A stretch of 47,331 bases of DNA from the NCBI GenBank assembly GCA_031296165.1, contig JARLGF010000080.1, positions 1 through 47,331 on the forward strand, written 5' to 3'. The position numbers and the translations under genes were made by a program. Positions 1 to 22,728 of the stretch are shown piece after piece; positions within the stretch are counted from its first letter, which is position 1, and the number at the start of each line of letters is the position of its first letter. Source of the stretch: Occallatibacter sp. (GTDB lineage: Bacteria; Acidobacteriota; Terriglobia; Terriglobales; Acidobacteriaceae). Under the pieces are notes generated by a model. It was not told where the DNA came from. It made no database searches and saw nothing but the letters and a program-made list of their open reading frames with translations.

Positions 1-2027
1 CGCCAAAGCGGTCCCGCTCCAATCCTCACCGGCTCCCGCGCAGTCCAATCCCCTCCCGCAAATTCCATTTCATAGCCCGGCTCGTCCGGTTCATCCACGG
101 CAATCCCCTCCATCTCGATAGCCGCCTGCGCCTCGTAGTCCACTACGCGCCGCCCCAGTACGACCGCTGCCGCCGCATCGAACAGCCTTCCCAGGCTCGA
201 CGTGAGCGGAGTGTTCACGCACCGCTCAATCATTCTCATGAGTACGCGTGCCTCTTTCTCCGTCGCGCCCAGCAGCGAGAGCGTTTCATTGCACGTCATC
301 TCGAATCCCGCCGCGCTCAAATGACCCAGCGCCATCCGCCACGGCTCCCGGATCGCAGCCTCACCGCCCGGCATCGGCACATAGTCCAGATGCGCAAATC
401 GCTCGAAGCCATCCAGCCGGCTCACCAGCACTTCCCCGCCCCAGATGCGCCCATCCGTTCCGTACCCGGTGCCGTCCAACGCCAGCCCGATCACCTGTCC
501 TTCAAGCCCATGCTCTGCCATGCATCCTGCAACATGCGCGTGATGATGCTGCACTGCGATCAGCCCCACCCCCCGTTCGCGCGCCCACTCCTTCGCCCAT
601 GTCGTCGACAAATACCCCGGATGCAGATCGTGCACCACCGTCTCCGGCTCAATCTCGAAGGTGCGCATCAGGTGCGCGAGCGACTCCTTAAAAAACTCCA
701 GCCCTGTCAGGTTCTCCAGATCCCCCAGGTGCTGGCTCTGATAAATGTGCCGCCCGCGCGCCAGCGCAAACACATTTTTCAAGTGACCACCCACGGCCAG
801 CAGCGGCGGCGCGTCCAGTGGCAACTCCACCCCCAGCGGCACAAATCCCCTTGCCCGCCGGATCAGTTGCGGAGCCCCATCCACCACTGCCACTACCGAG
901 TCGTCGCAGCGCTGCAAAATCTCCCGGTCGTGCAGCAGGAACGCATCCGCAATTTCGCCCAGCCGCGCCTGCGCCTCGTCGTTGTCAATCGTAATCGGCT
1001 CCTCGCTCAGGTTCGCAGAGGTCATCACCAGCGCCCGAATCCGCGCATCGGCAAACAACAGATGCTGCAGCGGCGCATAGGGCAAAAATACGCCCAGCCA
1101 AGGAATCCCCGGAGCCACGCCCGCCGCAATCCCATTGCCTGCGCGCGCCCGCGCCAGCACAATCGGTCGCGCCGAAGTCTGCAGCAGTGCCTCTTCCTCG
1201 CCCGTCAGCGCGCACACTGCCCGCGCCGCTTCCACATCTTTCACCATCACCGCCAGCGGCTTGCCATACCGGTGCTTGCGCTCCCTCAGCCTTTGCACCG
1301 CCGCCTCATTCGTCGCATCAACAGATAAATGAAACCCGCCAATCCCCTTGACAGCCACTATCTTTCCCGCTGCCAGCAGTTGCAGTGTCCGCTGCACTGC
1401 CTCCTCGCCTTGGATCGCCTCGGACTCTGCCGTCTGCAACAGCCAGACCCGCGGCCCGCACTCCCAGCACGCATTCGGTTGCGCATGGAACCGCCTGTTC
1501 CCGGGATCGTCGTACTCCGCCTGGCAGGCCGCGCACATCCTGAACCGCGCCATCGAGGTCTGCGGACGGTCATACGGTATCCGCCGCGTAATCGTGAATC
1601 GCGGCCCGCAATTCGTGCAATTCAAAAACGGATAGCGGTAGCGCCGATCCTTCGGGTCCAGCAACTCCCGCAGGCAATCCGGACAGGTCGCCGCGTCCGC
1701 CGGAATTCCCGTGCTCACCCGCCCCAGAACCTCGCTGGCAACAATCCGGAATTCCGCTTCGCCAAGCGCCGCAGTCTCCCGCACCGCAATCGAGTCAATC
1801 CGCGCCAGCGGCGGAGCCTCCGAGCGCAGCCGCCGCAAGAATGCCTCCACCCTGGCAGCCGGCCCTTCAATCTCGATCGTCACCCCGTCCGTATCGTTGC
1901 CGATAAACCCCGCAAGCCCTTCTTCCTGCGCCAGTCGATACACAAACGGACGGAACCCCACTCCCTGCACCACCCCGCACACCTGCACGGCGCGCCGTTC
2001 GAGTTTTGGTTGTGTCCTGTCAGTCAA
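1..2027 (-). CDS. hypF: Carbamoyltransferase HypF ([NiFe]-hydrogenase maturation), partial: C-terminus runs off the left edge
   Basis: Minus-strand translation by hand: LTDRTQPKLERRAVQVCGVVQGVGFRPFVYRLAQEEG (acylphosphatase domain), ATCPDCLRELLDPKDRRYRYPFLNCTNCGPRFTITRRIPYDRP (zinc-finger/HypF motif), ALVMTSANLSEEPITIDNDEA (YrdC-like part). All are in one frame. Probable TTG start at 2027 (GTG about 1989 possible). Not in the ORF track. Confidence 0.93.
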   Translation of the reverse strand, partial: MTDRTQPKLERRAVQVCGVVQGVGFRPFVYRLAQEEGLAGFIGNDTDGVTIEIEGPAARVEAFLRRLRSEAPPLARIDSIAVRETAALGEAEFRIVASEVLGRVSTGIPADAATCPDCLRELLDPKDRRYRYPFLNCTNCGPRFTITRRIPYDRPQTSMARFRMCAACQAEYDDPGNRRFHAQPNACWECGPRVWLLQTAESEAIQGEEAVQRTLQLLAAGKIVAVKGIGGFHLSVDATNEAAVQRLRERKHRYGKPLAVMVKDVEAARAVCALTGEEEALLQTSARPIVLARARAGNGIAAGVAPGIPWLGVFLPYAPLQHLLFADARIRALVMTSANLSEEPITIDNDEAQARLGEIADAFLLHDREILQRCDDSVVAVVDGAPQLIRRARGFVPLGVELPLDAPPLLAVGGHLKNVFALARGRHIYQSQHLGDLENLTGLEFFKESLAHLMRTFEIEPETVVHDLHPGYLSTTWAKEWARERGVGLIAVQHHHAHVAGCMAEHGLEGQVIGLALDGTGYGTDGRIWGGEVLVSRLDGFERFAHLDYVPMPGGEAAIREPWRMALGHLSAAGFEMTCNETLSLLGATEKEARVLMRMIERCVNTPLTSSLGRLFDAAAAVVLGRRVVDYEAQAAIEMEGIAVDEPDEPGYEMEFAGGDWTAREPVRIGAGPLW

Positions 2028-2774: not shown

Positions 2775-5700
2775 ATGATAGTCGCGACCGTACTGATTGC
2801 TCCATGTTCGCTTCTATTGGGCGCCGCACTGCAGATTCTCGTCGCAAGGCTCTGTTCCGCCCGAACCAAAGGAATACTGGCCTTTCTCACCTGTCTACCT
2901 GCGGTTCTCGCTGTTCTGAGCATGGTGCATGGGCTCGAGGCAGGCCAAGCTGTCGAGCTCAATCTGTTGCAGTGGGATGGACCGCTCAACCTCGTTCTTC
3001 ATGTCGACGCGCTCAGTGTTCTCTTTGCGTTCATGGGTTCGGGTCTGGGCGCTCTCGTTCTCCTCTACTCCATCGGATACATGGCGCACGATAAGTCCGC
3101 CACTCGCTTCTACTGCTCGATGCTGATCTTCATCGGCGGCTTCATCGGGCTGGTCTACAGCGCCAACCTCTTCTTCTTCTACCTCTGCTGGGAAGTGATT
3201 GGGCTCTGCTCCTTCAGCTTGGTGGGTTTCTGGTACACCAACCCCGAGGCGGTCGCCGGCGCGCGCAAGGTGCTGTTGATGACCCACATCGCGGGCTACG
3301 GCCTGCTGGCTGCCATCCTGCTCATCTATTTCCGCACCGGCAGCGCTTTGTGGACCGATCCCCATGTTGCCCACAGCTTCACCGGCGGAGTCTTTCTTCT
3401 TATGCTGGTCGCACTGGTGGCCAAGTCCGTACAGGTGCCTTTGCACACCTGGATTCCTGAAGCCATGGCGGCTCCTACCCCGGTAAGCGCTCTGCTGCAC
3501 GCGGCCTGCTATGTAACCTCCGGCGTCTATCTGGCCGCCCGCATGCACAGCTTCGGCGTCTGGCCCGCCGCCTGGGGTGCAACTCTGGTCTGGATAGGCA
3601 CCGTCACCATGGCGGTCGGCGTCATGTACGCCATGGTCCAGACCGATCTGAAACGCATGTTGGCCTTCTCCACGGTGAGCCAGATCGGCTACATGATGAT
3701 GGGCCTCGGCATCGGCACCCCGCTGGCCATTACCGCGGGCCTGCTCCATTGCCTCAATCACGGATTTTTCAAGGGCGGCCTGTTTCTCAACGCCGGCGCG
3801 GTACAGCACGCCGCCGGCACGCGCGACATGAATCTGCTCGGCGGCCTGGCGCAGCGCATGCCGCACACCACGCTCTCCTGGCTCATCGGCGTGGGCAGCA
3901 TGGTGGGTATTCCGCTCATGAGCGGATTCGTCAGCAAATGGATGCTGTACGCAGCGGCGTTGCAGGCCGGCTGGGCCGTACCTGCCATCGTGGCCTGGAT
4001 AGTCAGCCTGGGCACCGTATTCATGTGCGCCAAGGCCACCAGCGCTGTCTTCCTGGGGCCCTTGACTAAGAACACCAAAGACGCCCGAGAGGCCCCGCCC
4101 ACCATGCTGTGGGGCATGGGACTGATGGCCGCTGGCAACATTGTTCTGGGCATTGCGCCGCAGTTGGCCGTCAACTACTTCCTCAATCCCATCCTCGGCG
4201 CGCTGGGGCTGGGCGCCGGTGTACATATGACCTGGTTCGGGCTGTTTGCCGATGCCGGCAGTTTCTCCACAACCGGCGGCCTGGTGCTGGCTCTGGTCTC
4301 GCTCGTCCTGGGCGGTCTCATCTACGCCATTGCCTATGTCGAGCGTCCTGCCGCAGTTACGGGCGGCGCGGCGCTGGTGGGCGCTGGCGAAGGGCCTACG
4401 GATGGGTCTTTGTCCGCGGGGTGGGGCTCTGACAGCGGAATCTTTACAGGTGGAGAGCCCATATCCGACCAGGGAAGACTCACCGCAGGCGATTTCTCCG
4501 ACATCTTCCTGCAAAACTGGCATGAGTTCTTTCGCTGGTCCAATGTGGACCGCGTCTATCTCGGCATCTGGAGCGGATTACTGGCTGCTTCCCGCCTTCT
4601 CGCCGTGGTTGTCTCCTGGCTGGAGCAGCGCGCCGCAGTCCTCATCGTTGCGCTGGCGGCGGCCCTGCTGCTTGGCATTCGCTGGCTTGCCCCTCCACTG
4701 GTGAGCACCGGATCCTTTGCCTCCCCTCTCGTGCCTGCCCTGCTGGTTGCGGCTTGCTCTGTAGCTGCGGGCGCATTGATCCTGGCCGCTCTCGCCCACT
4801 CTGCCTGGCGCCGCCTGGCGCCGCTGATGATTCTGGCCAGTGTGGCCACCGTTGCCGGCCTCTCCGTCTCCGGTCCATGGACGCGTCTCTGGCTTTTGGA
4901 AGTGGGCGCGCTGCTCACCGTCCCGCTAATCTGGCAAAGCGCGCGCACACGCGCCACAAAGCTGGCCTACCTCGCCGTGGTCCTCATCTCGGCTTTGTCT
5001 CTCATCTCCAGCCACATGCTGATGGAGCGCGGACAGGCGGACTGGTCGCGCGCGCTGCTGCTCACCAGCCTCTGCGTCAAGCTGGCCGCGGTTCCGCTCT
5101 TCTTCTGGCTGCTCCGGCTGGCCGATGAACTCCCCGCCCTGGTTCTCGGCTTCATCGTTGCCGTCGTCGATATGGCGGCGTTTGGCGAACTCTACGCCAT
5201 CGCGCAGTATTCTCCGGCTTCGCTTACTCCCCAGGGACTCCTGTTGGGTGCAGCCGCGGCCACTTCGTTCCTCGCCGCTCTCCTCATGCTCTCGCAGCGC
5301 AGCCTCAAGCGCCTGCTGGTTCTCTCCACCGTTGAAGACATAGGCTTCCTTTTGCTCGGGCTCGCCTCCGCCAGTGCTCTGGGAATCGCAGGCGTGCTCT
5401 TTGCCGCCGCCACGCATGCTCTGGCCAAGGCTCTTCTCTTCGCCTGTCTCAGCGGCCCTGAGGCAGCGGGCGCGCTTGACGGCGAGCACACGTGCCTCAT
5501 CGTCCGCTATCCCGTTAGTGCCTTCGGTTTCCTGTTCGGCATGTTGGCCATGCTGGGCATTCCGCCCACGCTCGGCTACCTCGGCCGCTGGAGACTTTAT
5601 GAAACCGCCTTGCAGATCAATCCTCTCCTCCTGGCGGTTTTCATCCTCTCTTCCGTCTTTGCTCTGATCGCATATGTCCTGGCTTTGTCGCGCGTATGGT

Positions 5701-5870
5701 GGGGCCCGCCGCACCAAGGCCAAGCTCACCAGCTTGATGCGCCGCCTCCGCCGCATCCCCTCAAGGAACCGCTTTTGTTGCGGACCACCATCGTTGCCCT
5801 GGTGGTGATGCTGCTCGTTGCCGGCATATGGCCGAACACACTGCAAATGCTGCAATGGGGGCGTCCATGA
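2775..5870 (+). CDS. Group 4 hydrogenase antiporter-like membrane subunit, NuoL-like domain fused to a second NuoM/N-like antiporter domain
   Basis: ORF 2673..5870; probable start MIVATVLIAPCSLL. NuoL-type motifs FFFYLCWEVIGLCSFSLVGFWY, LVAKSVQVPLHTWIPEAMAAPTPVSALLHAA, LKRMLAFSTVSQIGYMMMGLG, GFVSKWMLY. Second copy: LLEVGALLTVPLIW, CVKLAAVPLFFWLL, LKRLLVLSTVEDIGFLLLGLA, HALAKALLF. Confidence 0.9.
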   Translation: MIVATVLIAPCSLLLGAALQILVARLCSARTKGILAFLTCLPAVLAVLSMVHGLEAGQAVELNLLQWDGPLNLVLHVDALSVLFAFMGSGLGALVLLYSIGYMAHDKSATRFYCSMLIFIGGFIGLVYSANLFFFYLCWEVIGLCSFSLVGFWYTNPEAVAGARKVLLMTHIAGYGLLAAILLIYFRTGSALWTDPHVAHSFTGGVFLLMLVALVAKSVQVPLHTWIPEAMAAPTPVSALLHAACYVTSGVYLAARMHSFGVWPAAWGATLVWIGTVTMAVGVMYAMVQTDLKRMLAFSTVSQIGYMMMGLGIGTPLAITAGLLHCLNHGFFKGGLFLNAGAVQHAAGTRDMNLLGGLAQRMPHTTLSWLIGVGSMVGIPLMSGFVSKWMLYAAALQAGWAVPAIVAWIVSLGTVFMCAKATSAVFLGPLTKNTKDAREAPPTMLWGMGLMAAGNIVLGIAPQLAVNYFLNPILGALGLGAGVHMTWFGLFADAGSFSTTGGLVLALVSLVLGGLIYAIAYVERPAAVTGGAALVGAGEGPTDGSLSAGWGSDSGIFTGGEPISDQGRLTAGDFSDIFLQNWHEFFRWSNVDRVYLGIWSGLLAASRLLAVVVSWLEQRAAVLIVALAAALLLGIRWLAPPLVSTGSFASPLVPALLVAACSVAAGALILAALAHSAWRRLAPLMILASVATVAGLSVSGPWTRLWLLEVGALLTVPLIWQSARTRATKLAYLAVVLISALSLISSHMLMERGQADWSRALLLTSLCVKLAAVPLFFWLLRLADELPALVLGFIVAVVDMAAFGELYAIAQYSPASLTPQGLLLGAAAATSFLAALLMLSQRSLKRLLVLSTVEDIGFLLLGLASASALGIAGVLFAAATHALAKALLFACLSGPEAAGALDGEHTCLIVRYPVSAFGFLFGMLAMLGIPPTLGYLGRWRLYETALQINPLLLAVFILSSVFALIAYVLALSRVWWGPPHQGQAHQLDAPPPPHPLKEPLLLRTTIVALVVMLLVAGIWPNTLQMLQWGRP

Positions 5871-6436
5871 ACCTCTGGAATCGATTGATGTGCTTCAGCC
5901 GCCGACGCAGTCCCTGGCTCTTCCATATGAATTCGGGCAGTTGCAACGGCTGCGACATCGAACTGATAGCCAGCCTAACCCCGCGCTACGATGCCGAGCA
6001 GTTGGGCGTGCGCCTGGAGGGCAGCCCACGCCACGCCGACATTCTCTGCATCACCGGCCCGGTCACTCGCAACTCCGTCCAGGCCATCAAAACCGTCTAC
6101 GGCCAGGTCTGCGGGCCTAAGGCCGTGGTCGCCATCGGCTCCTGTCCGGCCACAACCAATGTCTTCATTGACAGCCGCACCCTCGACGGGCCGCTCAACC
6201 GGCACCTTCCCGTCGATGTCTTTGTGCCCGGCTGCCCGCCCCGTCCCGACGCCATCATCCAGGGCATCGCCGCGGCCGCCGGCATCCTGGCCGAAAGAGC
6301 CGCAAAAAGATGGCCCGCGGAATCCGTCATGGTGCCTATGGCCGATCCGGAAAGCGCCTGCGATTGTACAAAATGCGATTGCACAAAAGAGGACAAATCC
6401 TCAGCCGATACCCCGGCCCGTGAGGTGCAGCCATGA
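5867..6436 (+). CDS. Group 4 [NiFe]-hydrogenase small subunit (NuoB/EchC/CooL-like)
   Basis: MNSGSCNGCDIELIASLTPRYD, AIGSCPATTN, VFVPGCPPRPDAIIQGI; 4-bp ATGA overlap with the previous gene. Confidence 0.9.
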   Translation: MNLWNRLMCFSRRRSPWLFHMNSGSCNGCDIELIASLTPRYDAEQLGVRLEGSPRHADILCITGPVTRNSVQAIKTVYGQVCGPKAVVAIGSCPATTNVFIDSRTLDGPLNRHLPVDVFVPGCPPRPDAIIQGIAAAAGILAERAAKRWPAESVMVPMADPESACDCTKCDCTKEDKSSADTPAREVQP

Positions 6437-7347
6437 ATCTCACCACTGCCCTTGCTCGTCTTCTCATCTTTCCCGGGCTCCTCTTCGCCGTACCCTTCGC
6501 CTGGTTCTTCCTCTGGGTGGAACGCAAATCCGTGGCTCTGATGCAGGGCCGCATAGGTCCGCCTTTCATGCAGCCCTTCTTCGACTTCATCAAGCTGCTG
6601 GGCAAAACCACCCCTCCCCGCCGTGGAGTAAGCGGCCTTCTGATGAAGACCTGGCCGCTGCTTGCGGTATCGACAGCGGGCGGCGCGGTTGGCCTTCTCC
6701 CCGTCCTGCCTTCCTCTGGAGGTTTCGAGGGCGACCTCATCCTGCTCCTGGCCCTGCTTGAAGTTCCCTCCATGTGCATCATCGCCGCCGGCTTCTCCTC
6801 GCGCTCCATTTTCGGTGAAATCGGCTCCGCGCGCGAAGCCGTCCTCAGCGTCTCCTATAACGTGGTCTTCCTTCTGGCCATCGTTTCCATCGCCGCCTCG
6901 CAGCACACCTTCCGTCTTGAAGCTCTGGCCCACCTGCCCGCCTCGCCCATGCTGATTCTGGCGGTCGTGGCCATTCTGGTTTGCCTCCCCGCCAAGCTGC
7001 ATATCAATCCCTTCTCGCTGCCCAACGCCGAGCAGGAAATCTACTCCGGCCCCATCACCGAATACGCCGGGCCGGAACTGGCCATGTGGGAGCTCTCCCA
7101 TGGGCTGGAGTGGGTAGCCGCCACTGGCCTGGTGGCCACGCTCATCGCTCCCCACTTTACTGCCGTATGGCTTGCTGTCCTGGCCTTCGTCGTGCTCTCC
7201 TTTGGCGTCGTCCTGCTGTTGTCGGTCACCGCGGCAGCCACGGCGCGCTTGCAGATCGATACCACGGTGCGCTTTTACTGGCAATGCACGCTGATCTTCG
7301 CGGTTCTGGCCATATCGTCCGCGCTCTTCATGAGGTTCCGGTCATGA
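6433..7347 (+). CDS. Group 4 hydrogenase membrane subunit (NuoH/EchB/CooK-like)
   Basis: FFLWVERKSVALMQGRIGPPFMQPFFDFIKLLGKTTPPRR; PFSLPNAEQEIYSGPITEYAGPELAMWELSHG; multiple TM segments. Confidence 0.9.
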   Translation: MNLTTALARLLIFPGLLFAVPFAWFFLWVERKSVALMQGRIGPPFMQPFFDFIKLLGKTTPPRRGVSGLLMKTWPLLAVSTAGGAVGLLPVLPSSGGFEGDLILLLALLEVPSMCIIAAGFSSRSIFGEIGSAREAVLSVSYNVVFLLAIVSIAASQHTFRLEALAHLPASPMLILAVVAILVCLPAKLHINPFSLPNAEQEIYSGPITEYAGPELAMWELSHGLEWVAATGLVATLIAPHFTAVWLAVLAFVVLSFGVVLLLSVTAAATARLQIDTTVRFYWQCTLIFAVLAISSALFMRFRS

Positions 7348-7769
7348 ACATTCTCTCCATGCTGTGGAAGAACCTGTGGGGCGGCTCCCGGACCATGCTC
7401 TTTCCCGCGCGGCCCAAGGTAACCAGGGGCTACCGCGGTCTGGTGCAGTTCAATCCCGACCTCTGCACCGGCTGCGCCATCTGCCGCTTCCGCTGCACCG
7501 CGCGCGCCATCTCCTTTACCAGCGCCAAGGGCACTTACACCTGGAGCTACGATCCCGGCCACTGCACCTTCTGCGGTCGCTGCGTGGAAGGCTGCAAAAC
7601 CCATGCGCTGAGCCAGGAAGCTGCCTGTCCGCCGGTTTATCTCACCATCGGCTCGTTGAAGAACTCTTACACCCTGGTCCGCAAGCCGCCTGCCCCCAGA
7701 CCGGCCTCTGAAGTTCCGTCCGCGGCCGGCAGCACGCCCGCGGAATCTGCCCCTGGAGGTGCGCAATGA
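7344..7769 (+). CDS. Polyferredoxin-like 2x[4Fe-4S] subunit (NuoI/EchF/CooX-like)
   Basis: CTGCAICRFRC and CTFCGRCVEGCKTHAL; start MNILSMLWKNLWGG with ATGA overlap. Confidence 0.9.
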   Translation: MNILSMLWKNLWGGSRTMLFPARPKVTRGYRGLVQFNPDLCTGCAICRFRCTARAISFTSAKGTYTWSYDPGHCTFCGRCVEGCKTHALSQEAACPPVYLTIGSLKNSYTLVRKPPAPRPASEVPSAAGSTPAESAPGGAQ

Positions 7770-8173
7770 CCTCGCTTGAATCCATACCGGAGACATTGGG
7801 AATCACCGCTCCCCTGGTCCTGAAGGGCGGCGTCCACTGGCTTGAGCCCGGCGTCATGACGGTGCGCGAACTCGCCGCGTCCATGAACGCTCTCCAGGCC
7901 CGCTTCATCACCATCACCGCCTACCAGTTGCCCCACGACGAAGGCTTTCGCCTGGAGTACCACTGGGATCTGGGCGGCCAGTTGCTGGGCTTTCCCTTTG
8001 TCCTTGCCGGCAACTCCATCGACAGCATCTACGACCTATGCGAGGCCGTGGACTGGATTGAGCGCGAAATTCACGAAGGCTTCGCCATCGATTTTCTGGG
8101 GCGCACATACGAGCCGCTGCTTTTGCGTCAGGGAGACACGCCGGGAGTAAACCTGCGCGAGGAGGTCAAATGA
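7766..8173 (+). CDS. NuoC/EchD/CooU-like 30-kDa subunit
   Basis: FRLEYHWDLGGQLLGFPFVLAGNSIDSIYDLCEAVDWIEREIHEGFAIDFLG; operon position. Confidence 0.82.
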   Translation: MTSLESIPETLGITAPLVLKGGVHWLEPGVMTVRELAASMNALQARFITITAYQLPHDEGFRLEYHWDLGGQLLGFPFVLAGNSIDSIYDLCEAVDWIEREIHEGFAIDFLGRTYEPLLLRQGDTPGVNLREEVK

Positions 8174-9252
8174 GCTACAAAATCCCCATGGGTCCCTACC
8201 ATCCCGCCCTGGAAGAACCCTACAAGCTCGACCTCATCTGCGAAGGCGAAACCGTCCGCGATGCCAAATTGCACATCGGCTTCAACTTTCGCGGCATTGA
8301 GCACCTGGCCGAAACGCGCAACTACATCCAGGTCATCGCCCTCATGGAGCGCGTCTGCGGCATCTGCTCCAACATCCACACCCTCACCCTCTGCCAGTCC
8401 ATGGAGCAGTTGACCGGCCTCACCCCGCCTCCCCGCGCCCTGTATATTCGCGTCGTCGTGGCCGAACTCGAGCGCCTCCACTCCCACGTACTCTGGGCCG
8501 GCATCGCCGCCAAGCTCATGGGCTTCAAAACCATGTTCATGACCTGCTTCGAACTGCGCGAGAAAGTCATGGACGTGCTCCAGGCCATCTCCGGCAACCG
8601 CGTCAACTACTCCATGAACCGCATCGGCGGAGTCAATCGCGACATCGACGACCCTCTTGCCGTGCTGGCCATGGTCCAGGCGCTTGAGCGCGAAATGGTC
8701 CGCACCGTCATCCCCATCTTCACCACCAGTTCCACGGCCCGCTCGCGCTGTGCCGGCATCGGCATCCTCACCCGCGAAAAAGCTCTCTCCTGCGGCGTTG
8801 TCGGGCCCACGGCGCGCGCCTCCGGGCTGCCCCAGGACCTGCGCCGCGATGCGCCCTACGCGGCCTACTCTGAAATGGAATTCAACGTCCCGGTTCAGCC
8901 GGATGGCGACGTCCGCGCCCGCCTGCTGGTCCGTGCCCTTGAAATCATGGAGAGCTGCAAGATTCTTCGCCAGGCGCTTACCAAAATGCCGCCCGGCGAA
9001 ATCAACACCGGGGACGCCAAAATCGTCTTCGCCGCCGGTACCGCCACCAGCCGCGTCGAGGCGCCCCGCGGTGAAGTCATGTACAGCGTCTCCTGGAAGC
9101 AGGACGCCAAAAATCCCAGCCGCGTGCACGTGCGCACGCCAACTTTTGCCAACATGCCCTCCGTCCGATGGATGGTCCTGGGAGCCCGGCTTGCGGACAC
9201 ACCCCTCATCCAGGCGTCCATCGATCCCTGCTACTCCTGCACTGACCGGTAG
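8170..9252 (+). CDS. Group 4 [NiFe]-hydrogenase catalytic large subunit (NuoD/EchE/CooH-like)
   Basis: N-terminal MERVCGICSNIH and C-terminal DPCYSCTDR-stop: all four Ni-ligating cysteines present; ends without a cleavable C-terminal extension. Confidence 0.93.
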   Translation: MSYKIPMGPYHPALEEPYKLDLICEGETVRDAKLHIGFNFRGIEHLAETRNYIQVIALMERVCGICSNIHTLTLCQSMEQLTGLTPPPRALYIRVVVAELERLHSHVLWAGIAAKLMGFKTMFMTCFELREKVMDVLQAISGNRVNYSMNRIGGVNRDIDDPLAVLAMVQALEREMVRTVIPIFTTSSTARSRCAGIGILTREKALSCGVVGPTARASGLPQDLRRDAPYAAYSEMEFNVPVQPDGDVRARLLVRALEIMESCKILRQALTKMPPGEINTGDAKIVFAAGTATSRVEAPRGEVMYSVSWKQDAKNPSRVHVRTPTFANMPSVRWMVLGARLADTPLIQASIDPCYSCTDR

Positions 9253-9350: not shown

Positions 9351-9418
9351 GATGCTTCCCGGTGGTCCATACTGCTCAAGTTAAAAGACAATTTAAGCTT
9401 AATCTTGCACATACAGCC

Positions 9419-10162
9419 ATGCCGGAGCTTCAACTGATGCATTCAAATCGATTGCGCGCAGCACCAACCCTCGCCGTTGCTTCTCTATTCTGCTGCCTCG
9501 GCATCGTCGCTGTTCCCGCCCAGCAGCCCGACGCTGCCTCGGTCATTCAAAAAGTGGACGCCGCTGTCAAAGCCCGGGTTGAAAGCATCGCTGGATACAC
9601 CGTGACCGAACATTACGCCGTCTACAGAAACAACGACGAAGTCCATCCGGTTGCGGAAATGACGGTCAAAACCATCTATCGCCAGGACTCCGGCAAAAGT
9701 TACGCCATCCTCTCGCAGTCCGGCTCGCAGATCGTGCGAAACATGGTGTTGGGCTCCATCCTGGACAATGAAAAGCACATCAACCTGCCCGGCGTCCGCG
9801 AGGGGGCGTGGATTATCTCCGCAAACTATGAAATGAAACTGCAGCCCGGCGGAACCCAGCAGTTGGATGGAAGAAACTGCTATGTCCTGCGCCTGACGCC
9901 CAAAATCAAGGCGCCCTACCATGTCGATGGAACCCTGTGGGTCGACGCCCGCGATGGTTCGATCGTTCAACTTCAGGGAATGGCGTCTAAAAGTGCTTCC
10001 TACCTGGCCGGACCTACGCAGATGATGCGCCAGTACACAAATGTCAGCGGCTTTGCCGAAGCAACCCATGCCCGGGCCGTCTCCAACAGTTTTCTCTTCG
10101 GCAAAACCGTCGTAACCATCGACTACCGCGACTACCAGATCCAGCTCCGTCCAACCCAATAA
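9419..10162 (+). CDS. Secreted protein of unknown function, possibly LolA/outer-membrane-lipoprotein-sorting-like
   Basis: ORF 9362..10162; signal peptide LAVASLFCCLGIVAVPAQQ; pattern YXRQDSGKSY...DGTLWVDARDGSIVQLQG. Confidence 0.55.
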   Translation: MPELQLMHSNRLRAAPTLAVASLFCCLGIVAVPAQQPDAASVIQKVDAAVKARVESIAGYTVTEHYAVYRNNDEVHPVAEMTVKTIYRQDSGKSYAILSQSGSQIVRNMVLGSILDNEKHINLPGVREGAWIISANYEMKLQPGGTQQLDGRNCYVLRLTPKIKAPYHVDGTLWVDARDGSIVQLQGMASKSASYLAGPTQMMRQYTNVSGFAEATHARAVSNSFLFGKTVVTIDYRDYQIQLRPTQ

Positions 10163-10396: not shown

Positions 10397-10894
10397 GTGC
10401 CAGCATTTACCCCCCCGCCGCTGCCGAGCGACGATAAGCGATGGAAGATTGTAAACGGCACCATGCGCAAGAACGGCTTTGCGCGCCACGCTCTCATTGA
10501 AACTCTCCACACCGTGCAGTCTTCGTTCGGTTATCTGGACGACGACGCTATCCGTTTTGTCGCGCTTTCGTTGCGCGTGCCGCTTAGCCAGGCTTACGGC
10601 GTGGTGACCTTCTACCACTACTTCAGCCTGAAGCCGCCCGGCAAGCACACCATGACCATCTGCACAGGCACTGCCTGCTACATCAAGGGCACTGACAAAC
10701 TGGTTGCCGCCGCTGAAAAGCTCCTGGGCATTCCCCAGGGCCAGACCACCCCGGATGGACAGATCAGCTTGATGACTGCCCGTTGCGTGGGTGCCTGCGG
10801 CCGTGCGCCGGTGGTGCTGACCGATGGCGAACTGGTTGGCCAGATGACCGGCGACCAGATGCTGGCGCAACTGGAAAGGTGGGCGGTGGAATGA
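10397..10894 (+). CDS. hoxE: NAD-linked hydrogenase diaphorase subunit HoxE (NuoE-like)
   Basis: GYLDDDAIRFVALSLRVPLSQAYGVVTFYHYFSLKPPGKHTMTICTGTACYIKG...ARCVGACGRAPVV; GTG start with CTGGAGG upstream. Confidence 0.92.
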   Translation: MPAFTPPPLPSDDKRWKIVNGTMRKNGFARHALIETLHTVQSSFGYLDDDAIRFVALSLRVPLSQAYGVVTFYHYFSLKPPGKHTMTICTGTACYIKGTDKLVAAAEKLLGIPQGQTTPDGQISLMTARCVGACGRAPVVLTDGELVGQMTGDQMLAQLERWAVE

Positions 10895-12531
10895 CGATCG
10901 AAGAACTGGATCAAATTGCGGAATCGACGCGGGCCGAGTACGACAAGTACGACCACGAGATCAATGTCTGTATGGGTACCGGCTGTCTCAGCCAGCACTC
11001 GGACAATCTGAAGGACGCGCTTGCCAAGGTTGTCGAAACCCAGGGCAAAAACGTATTCGTCCGCCGCACCGGCTGCATGGGCCTCTGCGCCGCCGGACCG
11101 CTGGTGCTGGTCGACCCCGAAGAAGTCCTTTATCAGCATGTCAATGCCAGCAACGCTGAAGCCGTGGTGGCCAGCCTGGGCGGTGAACCCATTGCCGCTC
11201 TCCAGTGCGACCTGCGCGAGCACTTCGATGAGCAGGTCCATGTGGTTCTGGAAAACTCCGGCCACATCGATCCTGAAAAAATCGACGACTATATCGCCCG
11301 CGACGGCTATCAGGCGCTGCTTACCGCGCTCAGCGACATGACCCCCAAAGGCGTCATCCGCCAGATCACCGAGAGCGGCCTCCGCGGTCGCGGCGGCGGC
11401 GGTTATCCCACCGGCTTGAAATGGGGCACGGTGGCCAAGGCTGCCGGCGATCTCAAGTATGTCATCTGCAACGGCGACGAGGGCGACCCCGGCGCTTTCA
11501 TGGATCGCAGCGTTCTCGAGAGCGATCCGCAGCGCGTCATTGAAGGCATGGCCATCGCCGCGTATGCGGTGGGCGCCAGCAAGGGCTACATTTATGTCCG
11601 CGCCGAGTATCCGCTGGCCGTCTCCCGGCTTACCAACGCCCTGCGCGACGCGCGGCGGCGCGGCCTGTTGGGCAACAACATCGGCAACACGCCTTTCAGC
11701 TTCGATGTAGAAATTCGCCTCGGTGCCGGAGCTTTCGTCTGCGGTGAAGAAACCGCCCTCATCGCTTCCATCGAGGGCCGGCGCGGCACGCCCAAGCCCA
11801 GGCCTCCCTATCCGGCCATGAGCGGCCTCTGGGGCCGGCCCACGCTGATCAATAACGTCGAGACCTTCGCCAACATCGCGCCCATCATCCGCAAGGGTGG
11901 CAAGTGGTTTGCGTCCATGGGCTCGGAAAGAAGCAAAGGCACCAAGGTTTTTGCCCTCACCGGCAAAATCACCAATACCGGCTTGGTCGAAGTGCCCATG
12001 GGCATCTCCCTCAGGAAGATCATTGAAGGCATTGGCGGCGGCGTTCCCGACGGCCACACCTTCAAAGCCGTGCAAACCGGCGGTCCTTCCGGCGGCTGCC
12101 TGCCCGCTGAAATGCTCGACATCGGGGTCAGCTACGACGCTCTGCTCAAGGTCGGTTCCATCATGGGCTCCGGCGGCATGATCATCATGGACGATACCTC
12201 CTGCATGGTGAATGTTGCACGGTTCTTCGTCGAGTTCACCATGACCGAATCCTGCGGCAAGTGCATTCCCTGCCGCGCCGGCACCGCCCAGATGCACACC
12301 CTGCTCTCCCGCATCTGCGCCGGCACCGGCACCATGGAAGACCTCGAACTGCTCGAGGATCTCTGCATCACGGTCAAGGAAACCAGTCTCTGCGGACTCG
12401 GTCAGACCTCGCCCAATCCCGTGCTCAGCACACTCAAATACTTCAGAAACGAATACATCGAGCACATCGTGCACAAGCGCTGTCCTGCTGGCGTCTGTAA
12501 CATTGAAGCTCCCGTGGAGGTGTTGGCATGA
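10891..12531 (+). CDS. hoxF: NAD-linked hydrogenase diaphorase subunit HoxF (NuoF-like with N-terminal 2Fe-2S domain)
   Basis: [10 protein letters not shown]...[59 protein letters not shown] overlap with hoxE sets the start. Confidence 0.94.
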
Positions 12532-13241
12532 CAGTCGATGTAGACGTCAAAACACTTGTAATCGACGAACAGGAGGTCAGCGCGCGCGCTGGCCAGACCA
12601 TCCTGGAAGTAGCGCAGGAGAACGATATCAAGATTCCCACCCTCTGCCATCTCGATGGCTTGGGCGATGTGGGCGCCTGTCGCCTCTGTCTGGTTGAGAT
12701 CAAAGGCAGCAACAAACTCTTGCCGGCCTGCGTCGCCACCGTCCAGGAGGGAATGGAAGTCAGCACCAACACCGAGCGGCTGCAGAAACATCGCCGCTCC
12801 ATTCTCGAGATGCTCTTCGCAGAGCGCAACCATATCTGCTCGGTGTGCGTCTCCAATGGCCACTGCGAACTGCAGACCCTCGGACAGGAACAGGGTTTAA
12901 CCCATGTCCGCCTGCCCTATCGCAACCCCGAACTCACCGTCGACGCCTCCCACGAACGCTTTACCGTGGATCACAACCGTTGCATCCTTTGCACACGCTG
13001 CGTGCGGGTCTGCTCTGAAGTCGAAGGCGCGCACATCTGGGATGTGATGGGACGCGGCATCGACTCCATCATCATCACCGATCTGCACCAGGAATGGGGA
13101 AGTTCTGCTTGCACGCGCTGCGGTAAATGCGTGCAGGTCTGCCCCACCGGCGCCCTCTTCGACAAAAGCAAAGTCGGCTCCGATCATCCCAAGTATCCCG
13201 ATTTCCTGCTTCAATTGAACCTCATGAGGGAAGCACAATGA
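12528..13241 (+). CDS. hoxU: NAD-linked hydrogenase diaphorase subunit HoxU
   Basis: [72 protein letters not shown]. Confidence 0.93.
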
Positions 13242-13771
13242 GCAAACTGAAACTGGCAACAGTCTGGCTGGACGGATGCTCCGGCTGTCACATGTCGTTC
13301 CTCGACATGGACGAGCGGCTCATCGAGTTGGCCGAACTGGTCGATGTGGTCTACAGTCCCATCGTGGATACCAAGCAGTTCCCCGACGAAGTCGATATCG
13401 CGCTGGTCGAGGGCGCCGTAGCCTCGGTGGACGACGAGAAGAAAATCAAAAAGATTCGCGCCCATTCCAAGATGCTCATCGCCATCGGCGATTGTGCCGT
13501 GGCCGGCAACGTGCCCTCCATGCGCAATCCCTTCGGCCCGGAAGCCATCCTCAACCGGGCATACATTGAAAACGCCGACACACAGCAGCAGATACCGTGC
13601 GTTGTGGTGCCCAAACTGCTGCGGGTCGTGCGTCCCATCCACGAGTTTGTCAAAGTGGACGTCTTCCTGCCCGGTTGTCCGCCCTCGGCCGATACTTTTC
13701 ACACAGCGCTGACCGCGCTGATAACCGGTGAGCCGCTGGATATTCCAGCCCTTACACGTTTTGGAGCCTAA
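13238..13771 (+). CDS. hoxY: NAD-reducing hydrogenase small subunit HoxY
   Basis: [54 protein letters not shown]; start fixed by overlap with the hoxU stop. Confidence 0.93.
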
Positions 13772-13790
13772 GCCCCTTGGAGTCCGAGTT

Positions 13791-15212
13791 ATGTCCCAGA
13801 CGATCACTATCGATCCGGTAACGCGCCTTGAAGGGCACGGCAAAATCACGATCCAACTTAACGGCCAGGGCGAAGTGGAGGACGCTCACTTCCACGTCAC
13901 CCAGGTCCGCGGCTTTGAAAAGTTCTCTGAAGGCCGGCCTTACTATGAGATGCCCAGCCTCATGGCGCGCATCTGCGGCATCTGTCCGGTCTCGCACCTC
14001 ATCGCTTCCGCCAAGGCCTGTGAGGCCATCATGTCGGTCCGCATTCCGCATACCGCCGCGCAATTGCGGCGCATGTTGAATCTGGCGCAGATGGTCCAGT
14101 CCCACGCGCTCAGTTTCTTCTACCTCTCCTCGCCCGACCTCCTATTGGGCATGGAGTCCGATCCCGCGGCGCGCCACATCTTCGGCGTCGTGGCCGCCAA
14201 GCCCGAACTCGGCCGCGCCGGCATCGCGCTGCGCCGCTTCGGGCAGCACATCATCGAACTCCTCGGCGACAAGCGCATCCATCCCGGATGGGTAGTCCCG
14301 GGCGGCGTCACCGAACCCCTGGCCCCGGCCAAGCGCGATGAGATCCTGGCCATGCTCCCCGAAGCCTACGCCGGCATTGCATTGGCCTTGACTGCATACA
14401 AGCAGATCGCCGCCAGCTTCAAGCCGGAGATTGAGGTATTCGGCAACTTCCCGTCGAATTACATGGGTCTGATCAACGAAGACGAATCGGTCGAATTTAC
14501 CGACGGCGCCCTGCGCATGATCGATCCCAAGGGAAACATCCTCGAAGACGGCATCACCGCCACCCGGTTCACTGAGGTTATCGGCGAAGCTGTCGAGCCT
14601 TACAGCTACACCAAGTTCGCCTACTACAAGCCCCTCGGCTACCCTGAGGGAAGCTATCGCGTGGGCCCGCTGGCTCGGCTCAACATCGTCAAGTCCATGG
14701 GCACTCCGCAGGCAGACACAGAACTCGCCGAATTCAAACAGTTGGCACAGGGCCTGGTCCAGAGTTCCTTCCACTATCATCACGCGCGATTGATTGAGGT
14801 CCTGTACGGCATCGAGAAAATCGAGCAGATCCTTACCGATCCGCTCATCCTCGACAAGCAGGTGCGCGCCACCGCCGGCGTAAACCGGCTTGAAGGCGCT
14901 GGCCAGGCCGAGGCGCCGCGCGGCACTCTCAATCACCATTACAAGGTGGACGAAAACGGTCTGATCACTTGGGCCAACCTCGTCATCGCCACCGGCCAGA
15001 ACAACAACGCCATGAACAAGGGCGTCTTGCAGGCCGCCAAGCACTACATCAAAGACGGCAAATTCACCGAGGGTATTCTCAACCGCGTCGAGGCTGTGAT
15101 CCGCACCTTCGATCCCTGCCTCAGTTGCTCCACGCACGCCTTCGGCAAGATGCCTTTGGCCCTCACACTGCTCTCTGAGGATGGCAAGCTCGTCGACCAG
15201 GTCATCCGCTAA
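13791..15212 (+). CDS. hoxH: NAD-reducing hydrogenase catalytic large subunit HoxH (group 3d-like)
   Basis: [61 protein letters not shown], including the C-terminal maturation extension. Confidence 0.95.
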
Positions 15213-15343: not shown

Positions 15344-15826
15344 ATGACTCCAGATCCTGTCCAATGTCTTATCCTCGCCTGCGGCAACACCCTGCGCGGC
15401 GACGACGGTGTCGGCCCCTGGCTTGCCGATTGGGCCGAGCGGCGATTCCGCGCCGATCCCCGGGTGCGCGTCCTGGCCCGCCAGCAATGGACTCCCGAGC
15501 TGACCGGAGACATCGCCCCCGCACAATACGTCCTCTTCATCGATTGCTCAGTCGTCTCCGCTCCCGGGGCAGTCAGCCTCATCCCCGTCGCGCCTGCCGC
15601 CGCTGCACAACAGGGACTTGCCACGCACCACCTGGGCGCGGCAGAACTGCTCGCCCTCGCCCGCGAACTCTTCAATTCCCTGCCCAGTCATACTCTCCTG
15701 CTTACCATCGGCGCCGGCTCAACGGAGCTGGGCGAAGTCTTCAGCGACCGCGTAACCGCCGCCCTTCCCAATGCCTGCCGCCTAATCGAAGAGACTGTCC
15801 TGCGCCTTCTCGACGGCCCCGAGTAA
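15344..15826 (+). CDS. hoxW: Hydrogenase maturation protease (HoxW/HycI family)
   Basis: LILACGNTLRGDDGVGPWLADW; FIDCSVV; ATHHLGAAELLALA; LLTIGAGSTELGE. Confidence 0.88.
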   Translation: MTPDPVQCLILACGNTLRGDDGVGPWLADWAERRFRADPRVRVLARQQWTPELTGDIAPAQYVLFIDCSVVSAPGAVSLIPVAPAAAAQQGLATHHLGAAELLALARELFNSLPSHTLLLTIGAGSTELGEVFSDRVTAALPNACRLIEETVLRLLDGPE

Positions 15827-17963: not shown

Positions 17964-18980
17964 TTAGAACGCCGCCACCGTCTGACGCAAACTGTACGAG
18001 CTGAGCGTCTTGATGTAATTGCCGCGATCGAACGGAGAAGTATCGGGAACGGAGCGCCGGCTCAGGCAGCCGCGCGTCTCCCAAAGCGACGCATACTCGC
18101 GCTTCTCCAGCCAGTACTGCATGTCCGCCAGCACTCTGCGGATGTGTTCGATGCCGTGAATGTGCAGCGCCGAACACATCATGGTCACGCCTGCTCCGGC
18201 CATAATGCCCTTCAACACATCCTCGGCCGAGTGAACGCCGCCCGTGATGGCGAGATCGATGTTCATATGCCCGTAGAGAATGGCAGCCCAGTGCAGCCGC
18301 GGCAGCAGTTCCGAGGGAGTTGAGAAGTGCAGCGTGGGCCGCACCTCCAGCGTCTCGATGTCGAAGTCCGGCTGGTAGAACCGGTTGAACAGCACCACAC
18401 CGCGAGCGCCCGCGTCTTCCAGCCGCGAAACCAGGTGCGGAATGCTGGTAAACGATTGCGACAGCTTCACGGCCACGGGAATCTTGACCGCGCCGGTAAC
18501 GGATGACACCAGTTCCAGCAGTTGCAATTCAAGCTCGGCTGAAGTCTGGCTGCGATCCGTGGCCAATGCGTAAGTGTTCAACTCGATGCCATCGGCCCCA
18601 GCCTGCTCCATATCCTTGGCAAACCGCACCCAACCGCCGGGAGTAGCACCATTCAAGCTCGCCATGATCGGTATCTTCACCGCTTCCTTGGCGCGCCGCA
18701 GATGCTCCAGGTAGGTCTCGTTCGTCATGCGGTAATCCTTCAGGTCGGGCAGGTACGCCAACGACTCGGCAAACGATTCCGTGCCGCGCTCCAGATCCTC
18801 GTCCAGCGCCCGCGATTCAAGCGCCAGTTGTTCCTCGAACAGCGAGGTGAGAACAATCGCCGACGCCCCTGCATCTTCCATGCGGCGAACGTTGTCCAGA
18901 GACTCTGAAAGCGGCGTGGATGAAACCACGATAGGTCCGTTCAGCTTCAAACCCATGTACTGCGTTGAAAAATCTATCAT
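17964..18980 (-). CDS. Dihydroorotate dehydrogenase-like protein (probably not biosynthetic PyrD)
   Basis: MIDFSTQYMGLKLNGPIVVSSTPLSESLDNVRRMEDAGASAIVLTSLFEEQ; ITGGVHSAEDVLKGIMAGA; ATGA overlap with the PFOR gene. Confidence 0.85.
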   Translation of the reverse strand: MIDFSTQYMGLKLNGPIVVSSTPLSESLDNVRRMEDAGASAIVLTSLFEEQLALESRALDEDLERGTESFAESLAYLPDLKDYRMTNETYLEHLRRAKEAVKIPIMASLNGATPGGWVRFAKDMEQAGADGIELNTYALATDRSQTSAELELQLLELVSSVTGAVKIPVAVKLSQSFTSIPHLVSRLEDAGARGVVLFNRFYQPDFDIETLEVRPTLHFSTPSELLPRLHWAAILYGHMNIDLAITGGVHSAEDVLKGIMAGAGVTMMCSALHIHGIEHIRRVLADMQYWLEKREYASLWETRGCLSRRSVPDTSPFDRGNYIKTLSSYSLRQTVAAF

Positions 18981-21900
18981 TTTCCACCTCCGGCACTTAC
19001 GGCCGCCGCTTTCTCTTCTGGTTTCTCTTCCGGCGCAATGTGTGGCGTCTCGCTGCGGCCCGGCATCGTGGACCGTGCGGAGTACACCCTCCATTGGCGC
19101 TCCACATCGTCCTGTGCTTCCTTCAGCAGTTCCGCTGCCAGCTCGGGATTACTGCGCGCCAGCATCGTGTAGCGGGCCTCGCGGTAAGTGTATTCCTTCA
19201 GCCGGATCGACGGCGCCTTTGAATCGAGCTGGAAGGGATTCTTGCCTTCCTCGCGCAATCCGGGGTTGTAGCGCATCAGCGGCCAGTAGCCTGACTGCAC
19301 GGCCAGTTTCTGCTGCTCCAGCCCGTGAATCAGGTCGTACCCGTGCGCAATGCAACTTGCGTAAGCGATGATCAGCGACGGACCCTCGTGTGCTTCGGCC
19401 TCCTGGAAGGCCTTCACCACATGCGTGTCGTTGCCGCCCAGCGCCACCTGCGCCACATACACCGAGCCGTAGCTCACAGCTTCCATGGCCAGGTCTTTTC
19501 TGCTGTTCGGCTTGCCGGCCGCGGCAAACTTCGCCACCGCGCCGCGCGGCGTAGCCTTGGACATCTGCCCGCCCGTATTCGAGTAGACCTCGGTGTCCAG
19601 CACCAGCACGTTCACGTTCTTGCCTGAGCCCAGCACATGGTCCAGTCCGCCAAAGCCGATGTCGAACGCCCATCCGTCTCCACCCAGAATCCACACGCTC
19701 TTGCGCACCAGCGAATCGGCAATCGCCAACAGGTTGCGCGCATCGGATGTCGCGTTTCCTGCCAGCCGTTCCCGCAGCGCCAATACGCGCTTCCGCTGCT
19801 CGCCAATCTCCGTCTCCGTCTTCTGCGAGGCCGTCAGCAGAGCTGTCACCAGCTCATCGCCAATCGCAGGCGCAAGCCGCGTCGTCAGCGTCTCGGCAAA
19901 CACCTTCTGCTGATCCAGCGCGATTCTCATGCCGAAGCCGAACTCCGCGTTGTCCTCGAACAGCGAGTTGGCCCACGTCGGTCCGCGGCCTTCCTTGTTA
20001 AAGGTATAAGGCGTGGTCGGCAGGTTGCCGCCATAAATCGACGAGCAGCCGGTTGCGTTCGCAATGTACAGCCGGTCGCCGAACAGTTGCGTCAGCAGCT
20101 TTACATACGCCGTCTCTCCGCAACCCGCGCAGGCGCCAGAGAACTCAAACAGCGGCTGCAAAAGTTGCAAATCCTTCACCTGGGTGTGCGACAGCTTGCT
20201 GCGGTCCACCTCGGGCAGGCTCAGGAAGAAATCCCAGTTCTCGCGCTCGGCTTCGCGCAGCGGCGCCTGCAGCGCCATATTGATAGCCTTCTTGCTGGTG
20301 TCGCTCTTGCTCTTCACCGGGCAAACATCCACGCAAACTCCGCACCCCGTGCAATCCTCAGGAGCAATCTGCAGCGTGTAGTGGTCCTGCTCCATCGCCT
20401 TCCACTTGGGCTTGGCCCACTTGAAAGTCGCCGGGGCCTTGTCTGCAAGCTCGGGGCTATAGATCTTGGCGCGAATCACGCCGTGCGGGCAAACCATGGC
20501 GCACTTGCCGCACTGGATGCAGAGGTCCTGCTCCCACACCGGGATGTGCTGCGCAATGTTGCGCTTCTCATACTGCGCTGTACCCGTGGGGAAAGCGCCG
20601 CCAGCCGGAATCGCGCTGACCGGAAGCTCATCGCCGCGGCCCGCTGCAATCTGTCCCAGAACATCGAACACAAACTTGGGCGCCTTGCTGGAGATGGAAG
20701 GGATCAGGTCGAAGTCGGACGAGGCTGCCGTGGGCAGTTCCACCTTTTCCAGGTGCGCCAGGGCCGCATCCACGGCGGCAAAGTTCTTCGCCACCACCGC
20801 TTCGCCGCGCTTGCCATAAGTCTTCTTGATGGACTTCTTGATCTGCTCAATGGCCTCTTCGCGCGGCAGCACGCCGCTGATGGCAAAGAAGCAGGTCTGC
20901 ATGATGGTGTTGATGCGGCGGCCCATTCCTGCCTTTTCCGCAACGGTGTAGCCGTCGATCACATAGAACTCGATCTTCTTGCGCAGTATCTCCTGCTGCG
21001 TGGTCTTCGGCAGATGGTCCCAGACCTCGGACGCCGGATAGGGCGAGTTGAGCAGGAAGACCGCGCCCGGCATGGCTGCGGCCACCGCGTCCATCTTCTC
21101 CAGGAAGCTGAAGTTATGGCAGGCCACAAAGCTCGCCTGCGTGATCAGATAGCTGGACCGGATCGGATTCGGTCCGAAACGCAGATGCGAGGTAGTCATC
21201 GACCCGGACTTCTTCGAGTCGTACACAAAGTAGCCCTGCGCATAATTCGGCGTTTCGCTGCCGATAATCTTGATCGAATTCTTGTTCGCGCCCACCGTGC
21301 CGTCCGAACCCAAGCCATAGAACAACGCGCGCACTGTCTTCGGATCCTCTGTCGAGAACGACGGATCGTAGGTCAGGCTGGTGTGGGTCACATCGTCGTT
21401 GATGCCGATCGTGAAGTGGTTCTTCGGAGCAGCCTTGGCTAGCTCGTCGTAGATGCCCTTCACCATGGCCGGCGTAAATTCCTTCGACGAAAGTCCGTAG
21501 CGCCCGCCGATCACAACCGGCTTGGCGGCAAAGGGTAGCGTGTCGGCGTTCTCCGCCAGCACGGTAACCACATCCTGGTAAAGCGGCTCGCCGCAGGAGC
21601 CGGGCTCCTTGGTGCGGTCCAGAACGGCAATCGACTTCACCGTCTTGGGCAACGCCGAGAGGAAAGCCTTGGTGTCGAATGGCCGGAAAAGACGAACCTT
21701 GACCAGACCCACCTTCTCGCCTTGCTTCACCATCAGATCCACGGCTTCATCGGCCACTTCCGCGCCAGAACCCATCACCACAATCACGCGCTCCGCATCC
21801 GGCGAGCCGTAGTAGTCGAACAGGTGATACGCGCGGCCGGTCTGCGCCGCAAAACGGTTCATCACATCCTGCACGATTCCCGGAACTGCTTCGTGGAAGG

Positions 21901-22615: not shown

Positions 22616-22728
22616 TCCGTATGCCTCATAGCGCGGCCCAGGGGTGTTCAACCGCTAGCTTGAGTCTCATCTCTGGGGGGGATACAGTGGCAGTGATGCG
22701 GGACACAGGGTGGACATTGAATCCCACA

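Follow-up and report, generated by a model that had tools for sequence, protein, structure and literature searches.

Where does a group 4 [NiFe]-hydrogenase obtain its electrons when its operon holds no enzyme for oxidising a substrate? The question is raised by six genes at positions 2775-9252 of a 47,331-nucleotide stretch of Occallatibacter sp. DNA (GenBank assembly GCA_031296165.1, contig JARLGF010000080.1), hereafter the window, which corresponds to contig C4 of a genome of 2.78 Mb estimated to be 65.5% complete. Its nearest relatives are Acidobacteriaceae metagenome-assembled genomes (MAGs) from bog and palsa peat (the Terracidiphilus/Occallatibacter group), and the closest large subunits are 88-92% identical. 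Peat is dominated by Acidobacteria, which are thought to supply methanogens with H2; to our knowledge, the enzymes by which they produce it have so far appeared only in the lists given in MAG papers. We consider it probable, at roughly 60%, that the enzyme is a ferredoxin:proton oxidoreductase, that is, an energy-converting group 4 [NiFe]-hydrogenase that lacks a dedicated substrate enzyme, is fed by pyruvate:ferredoxin oxidoreductase (PFOR), evolves H2 and pumps ions. A first-pass annotation of this DNA had proposed ferredoxin-dependent, ion-pumping H2 evolution, and the present analysis supports this as the likely role.

According to Pfam and NCBIfam, the six genes, all on the + strand, run in the order antiporter fusion (LN)-B-H-I-C-D (Table 1). 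Once the start codons of B and I had been refined, to 5867 and to the ATG at 7344, all five junctions proved to be ATGA overlaps, with the downstream ATG lying over the upstream TGA, which is a hallmark of a co-translated operon. The operon is kept in at least 30 Acidobacteriaceae genomes and was found in 13 of the 200 genomes sampled in the order; this shared arrangement, together with Pfam E-values between 1e-26 and 1e-87 for four of the subunits (LN, B, H and D), shows that it is not a product of chance. A culturable relative, Occallatibacter savannae (L038), carries it. The first-pass annotation had described the same genes, order and strand, and had correctly likened the order to that of coo with K and L (here H and B) exchanged.

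The catalytic subunit D carries the L1 motif RVCGICSNIH and the L2 motif DPCYSCTDR, the latter directly followed by the stop codon, so that, without a C-terminal extension, its C-terminus would need no endopeptidase processing. Cys63, Cys66, Cys354 and Cys357 are invariant in 23 relatives. Subunit B shows the hydrogenase-type CNGCD motif and a Cys-rich C-terminal tail, and subunit I contains two CxxCxxCxxxC motifs. In the PDB, D matches MbhL (8.2e-79) and HycE (6.6e-65), whereas the best match of B is MbhJ. The AlphaFold2 model of D (pLDDT 88) gave 7z0s_E as the top and 6cfw_L as the third Foldseek match, with TM-scores of 0.91-0.92, but the 49-kDa chains of complex I match the model nearly equally and thus the fold alone does not separate a hydrogenase from Nuo. 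In the LN fusion, matches to the separate Azospirillum L and N proteins delimit a NuoL-type module (residues ~1-540) followed by a NuoN-type module (~653-1024). The former retains a Glu in transmembrane helix (TM) 5 and Lys residues in TM7, TM8 and TM12, and the latter a Glu and two Lys, residues that we presume to play the same channel roles here as in complex I.

Both CxxC pairs and the NuoB-type, NuoH-type and antiporter-type subunits thus occur in a single operon, as in group 4, and the locus is, judging from its sequence, a complete six-subunit [NiFe]-hydrogenase of this group with its catalytic, FeS and channel motifs intact. A decayed or non-hydrogenase complex of the Ehr or Nuo type, to which the homology with complex I subunits and the missing L2 motif of some Bacillota relatives might point, is most improbable given that both CxxC pairs are present and invariant in the clade, that hypF is adjacent and that the reading frames are open throughout in many genomes. 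The large subunit also falls within the hydrogenases, split from NuoD-like rows with 100/100 support, and the enzyme is therefore a genuine hydrogenase rather than an Ehr-like relative, as had been proposed.

In a maximum-likelihood tree of 90 large subunits, the window sequence lies within a 38-member clade (support 100/99) drawn from Acidobacteriaceae, Anaerolineae, Azospirillum and other Alphaproteobacteria, Holophagaceae, Aminicenantes, Nitrospiraceae, Syntrophobacteraceae and Thermoleophilia. Ech and Coo references were recognised by gene order, not by named proteins; the eight canonical Coo loci have the order cooM-K-L-X-U-H-(hypA)-F-S, which is the published arrangement of C. hydrogenoformans (PMC4257681), and were taken from Bacillota because 399 sampled Pseudomonadota genomes gave no CooH, only formate-hydrogenlyase-like rows and the Azospirillum enzyme. 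These eight CooH sequences, the Ech-order enzymes (a separate 13-row clade, 100/99), the formate hydrogenlyases (with HycE of 7z0s) and Mbh (6cfw) all lie in other clades. The approximately unbiased (AU) test does not reject a tree in which canonical CooH is the sister group of all 38 members (p 0.187), whereas it does reject one that groups canonical CooH with the carbon monoxide dehydrogenase (CODH)-linked Anaerolineae members (AU p 0.0007). L1 reads CGICSNxH in almost every member of the clade, as against CSLCSNNH in 8/8 canonical Coo loci, and the window enzyme fits the clade signatures at both L1 and L2, DPCxSCT(D)R. In addition, all six of its subunits are closer to enzymes of their own clade linked to aldehyde ferredoxin oxidoreductase (AOR) or CODH than to Coo.

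The window enzyme accordingly lies outside the canonical CooH (4c) and Ech-order (4e) clades, two of the three placements that had been suggested beforehand, and it has neither the R(V/L)CSLCSNNH motif nor the cooFS partner of 4c. The description 'Coo-like' holds for the six-subunit plan and for the gene order with B and H swapped, but not for the lineage, as the clade, the L1 motif and the construction of the fusion all differ. With regard to formate hydrogenlyases (4a/4f), the enzyme has no formate dehydrogenase (FDH) or HycB-type partner and is placed outside the HycE clade, and no Mrp antiporter subunits (4b/4d) occur among the open reading frames located at 1-15 kb in the window. The third suggestion, HydDB group 4g, is probably the best, if putative, label; this group is listed as 'ferredoxin-coupled (putative)', with its role undetermined, and those who defined it describe it as loosely clustered (PMC5037454).

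No cooS, fdh or AOR gene lies near the operon in the window, as had been noted for the first two, and its upstream neighbour is a divergent hypF; the operon thus has no partner, meaning none of CODH, AOR, FDH, Mo-hydroxylase or AdhE. The first-pass annotation had allowed for a CODH or FDH encoded elsewhere, and this was addressed in the window genome and in 12 near-complete relatives (93-100%) that carry the operon. CooS is absent from the 65.5%-complete genome and from 12/12 relatives, including G167. The only prismane-family (PF03063) match of the window genome, on contig C40, is not a CODH but a hybrid cluster protein, as are such matches in relatives (three among the 12). No AOR was found in the window genome; its molybdopterin matches are NuoG of the nuo operon and one weak match on contig C76, neither of them taken as FDH, and its further NuoD-like genes belong to complex I. 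Among the 12 relatives, one has AOR, three have an FDH alpha subunit above the cut-off (the other nine have none that reaches it) and 11 have a NifJ-type PFOR; four (G190, G191, G194 and G127) have neither CooS nor AOR nor any FDH that passes the cut-off.

These counts bear on the idea of a CO-respiring (4c) or formate-linked (4a/4b) hydrogenase whose CODH or FDH was missed through genome incompleteness. Group 4 enzymes of peat Acidobacteria MAGs, including SbA5, have been so described (PMC6018796), Anaerolineae members of the clade adjoin CooS, and FDH does occur in three of the relatives; the absence of CooS from all 12, the four genomes with no CooS, no AOR and no FDH above the cut-off and the position outside the canonical CooH clade nevertheless leave this idea largely refuted and decidedly improbable. 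Published subgroup labels for these Acidobacteria enzymes are inconsistent, being 4a/4c in one report (PMC6018796) and 4b/4d in another (PMC9599518). Such listings also qualify the earlier remark that the enzyme is little studied in this lineage, which is fair, except that group 4 hydrogenases had already been recorded there. Caution is needed with 'CO-respiring' or 'formate-linked' as subgroup labels, which for such genes misstate the metabolism.

Table 1. Annotated features of the window (positions in nucleotides)
Feature	Positions	Strand	Evidence
hypF, CN-ligand maturation, runs off window edge	3-2027	-	TIGR00143, 745 bits (cut-off 466)
LN, antiporter fusion, 1031 aa	2775-5870	+	Pfam Proton_antipo_M twice, E 2.1e-87
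B, NuoB/CooL/MbhJ-type small subunit, proximal [4Fe-4S]	5867-6436	+	PF01058 1.4e-26; PDB 6cfw_J MbhJ 9.7e-56
H, NuoH/CooK/MbhM-type membrane subunit linking the two arms	6433-7347	+	PF00146 2.4e-48
I, NuoI/CooX/EchF-type 2x[4Fe-4S] ferredoxin-like subunit	7344-7769	+	Fer4 domains
C, NuoC/CooU-type subunit	7766-8173	+	PF00329 2.3e-7; position kept across clade
D, NuoD/CooH-type [NiFe] large subunit	8170-9252	+	PF00346 6.9e-66; PF00374 1.2e-10
266-aa protein	9362-10162	+	no Pfam/NCBIfam match
hoxEFUYH, group 3d NAD-coupled bidirectional hydrogenase	10397-15212	+	HoxU above cut-off; HoxE 220 bits (cut-off 224)
Candidate protease of HoxW/HycI type for maturation of the 3d enzyme (weak)	15344-15826	+	PF01750 7e-4, under cut-off
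Dihydroorotate-dehydrogenase-like (DHOD) protein paired with PFOR	17964-19094	-	PF01180 3.2e-11
PFOR, single-chain NifJ type	18977-22651	-	TIGR02176, 1794 bits (cut-off 911)
OLD-family-like AAA ATPase with TOPRIM domain	29145-31091	-	
GH20 hexosaminidase fused to serine beta-lactamase-family domain, 1067 aa	33218-36421	-	

The surroundings of the operon point to PFOR as the probable source of reduced ferredoxin. The PFOR gene begins 9.7 kb past the operon, in agreement with the earlier estimate of about 10 kb, and the PFOR-DHOD pair is kept in seven other loci (L016, L017, L022, L041, L046, L054 and G096). The island of hypF, group 4 operon, hox and PFOR-DHOD recurs, whole or in part, in L016, L017, L022, L046/G191 and the single-contig genome G096, with hypF in the same position in L016, L022, L046 and G096. 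PFOR or DHOD lies within ~11 kb in eight species, in six of them downstream past hox and in two (L041 and L054) 9-10 kb upstream, without hox. A rough binomial estimate, which ignores shared ancestry, puts the chance of eight such species at ~6e-10; repeated proximity in two arrangements is hard to explain by chance, although the loci do share ancestry.

The electron donor, the direction of flow and the ion pumped are what we infer from these features. When O2 is short, PFOR would oxidise pyruvate derived from plant sugars and reduce ferredoxin, whose electrons would enter at the two [4Fe-4S] clusters of subunit I and pass through the cluster of B to the [NiFe] site of D, where protons would be reduced to H2. 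The energy drop would drive H+ (or Na+) through H and both antiporter modules of LN, and this ion movement would add to the ATP yield of fermentation. A sugar fermenter is consistent with the GH20, GH35 and tagatose-bisphosphate aldolase-like (GatZ) genes found further along the window.

Several observations weigh against this mechanism. The window genome is incomplete; the co-occurrence of PFOR is not significant (11/12 genomes with the hydrogenase vs 11/16 without, p=0.20), and G194 has the hydrogenase but no EKR-type PFOR. The linked PFOR is >9 kb away, on the opposite strand and beyond a second hydrogenase, the 3d enzyme, which could itself take PFOR electrons through NADH. Finally, the TM12 position, which holds the final pumping residue in the N module, is occupied by Arg or His, not Lys or Glu, throughout the clade.

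The main competing explanation is a reverse flow, in which H2, from neighbours or the 3d enzyme, and the ion gradient would reduce ferredoxin for biosynthesis (by PFOR acting as pyruvate synthase, or by nitrogenase), in the manner of methanogen Ech. According to the HydDB table (PMC5037454), enzymes of the Ech type work physiologically in both directions, a bidirectional 3d hydrogenase adjoins the operon, and nitrogenases have been reported from peat Acidobacteria MAGs (PMC9599518). The neighbourhood in the window is, however, fermentative and sugar-degrading (PFOR, GH20, GH35, GatZ), and relatives couple the hydrogenase to oxidising input enzymes, so that we regard the reverse direction as unlikely, if deserving serious attention. 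Rather unlikely too is a hidden partner, encoded elsewhere or divergently, for instance an NADH-dependent module (HoxE-like protein, NuoF-GltD fusion and HoxU-like protein) or a Mo-hydroxylase, with which the enzyme would form a split hydrogen lyase or a bifurcating complex. Four loci (G111, L019, L020 and L021) carry a divergent NuoE/NuoF-Pyr_redox/HoxU-like module just upstream of the LN gene, G094 has a Mo-hydroxylase upstream on the opposite strand, and BfuABC-linked group 4 hydrogenases have been proposed in Dehalococcoides (PMC9304861), but in the window, as in most relatives, no such module adjoins the operon, and none is ever within the operon in Acidobacteriaceae. The module of L019, L020, L021 and L256/L257, a divergent set of NuoE-like protein, NuoF-Pyr_redox fusion (~1055 aa) and HoxU-like protein, resembles electron-bifurcating modules of the Bfu type.

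Returning to the favoured reading of a PFOR-fed, H2-evolving enzyme, the lack of a partner can be set against the partners of the rest of the clade, which were labelled by similarity to single reference proteins. Fifteen tree members have a 4Fe-4S protein and an AOR directly upstream, often with a MoaD-like protein. In Azospirillum and other Alphaproteobacteria (L007-L010 and L072-L082) the 4Fe-4S protein, AOR, MoaD and the pumping hydrogenase form an operon, plasmid-borne in L007-L010, which is a candidate aldehyde hydrogenlyase. Three Anaerolineae loci (L053, L055 and L056) have CooS in place of AOR, again beside a 4Fe-4S protein, and this pairing with a non-Coo hydrogenase is, on the topology test (AU p 0.0007), a recruitment independent of Coo. 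In Longilinea and a relative (L058 and L061), an aldehyde-oxidase-type Mo-hydroxylase of 918-954 aa (MoCoBD/[2Fe-2S]) replaces AOR beside the same 4Fe-4S protein. Two deep-branching Acidobacteriales loci (L050 and L051) have AdhE directly upstream; its gene, a possible FDH by size, was identified by Pfam.

Fitch parsimony places AOR at the root of the clade, with six changes, and leaves the Acidobacteriaceae node without a partner. The ancestral enzyme may thus have been tied to a tungsten aldehyde:ferredoxin oxidoreductase, the input module being lost in the Acidobacteriaceae branch. We tentatively suggest, as a scenario somewhat short of an even chance, that the clade forms a modular family of energy-converting hydrogenases not named before. 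Such a family would have begun as an 'aldehyde hydrogenlyase' composed of a tungsten AOR, a 4Fe-4S protein and the pumping hydrogenase, later exchanged its input enzyme for CODH (independently of Coo) and for a Mop-like Mo-hydroxylase, and lost it in Acidobacteriaceae, where the enzyme would now serve aerobic-type soil bacteria as a general outlet for ferredoxin. No description of an AOR-linked group 4 hydrogenase operon was found in the open-access literature searched; the partner-swapping clade, its AOR-linked form (Azospirillum plasmids, Anaerolineae) and the partnerless Acidobacteriaceae branch all appear to be new. The clade offers a testable case of modular evolution, in which one pumping hydrogenase is re-plugged to aldehyde oxidation, CO oxidation or free ferredoxin. 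If the window enzyme does pump protons at the expense of ferredoxin, fermentation would yield these bacteria additional energy, and the H2 that they release could be traced to a single operon.

Other genes of the window deserve mention. The complete group 3d hox operon, which follows the group 4 genes at a distance of 1.1 kb, is kept in L016, L017, L022, L046 and G096; neither it nor hypF had figured in the first-pass annotation of the locus. The 266-aa protein encoded between the two operons is conserved with the island in the same five loci, and in some genomes its gene lies before, not after, the hydrogenase operon. Further along, the GH20 hexosaminidase is fused to a beta-lactamase-family domain, and the OLD-family-like ATPase is possibly of a phage-defence type.

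Comparison with known systems highlights what is shared and what is particular. With CooMKLXUH (4c; R. rubrum, Rubrivivax, C. hydrogenoformans) the window operon shares six subunits, an antiporter fusion, the X-U-H end order and a large subunit without C-terminal extension; it differs in the swapped B and H, in L1 (CGIC, not CSLC) and in having no cooFS. Its large subunit is 40-43% identical to those of canonical Coo loci, as against 58-66% for several AOR/CODH-linked members of the clade. CooM (~1280 aa in L211, L265 and L267) consists of two L/M-type modules and a partial third, according to a module scan that ruled out an N-L fusion in reverse order, and with an L + N make-up the window fusion is a different construction. 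EchABCDEF (4e) is similar in its presumed ferredoxin donor, its lack of a dedicated input enzyme and of a C-terminal extension, but Ech-order loci run L-H-B-C-D-I (e.g., L011) with one antiporter module, form a separate clade and show ~42% identity. Formate hydrogenlyase (4a/4f) and Mbh (4d), the best solved relatives, share the fold and the [NiFe] site; the window has no FDH, HycB-type protein or Mrp subunits, and HycE is a C-D fusion with a C-terminal extension, unlike the window D. HydDB group 4g is likewise uncharacterised and presumed to be ferredoxin-fed. The closest comparison is with the AOR-linked enzymes of Azospirillum (52-54% large-subunit identity), Levilinea and Edaphobacter aggregans (55-58%), which share the clade and the gene order and, unlike the window, encode directly upstream a 4Fe-4S protein, a tungsten-type AOR and, in many cases, a MoaD protein; Edaphobacter has L and N fused, as in the window, whereas Azospirillum and Levilinea encode the two separately.

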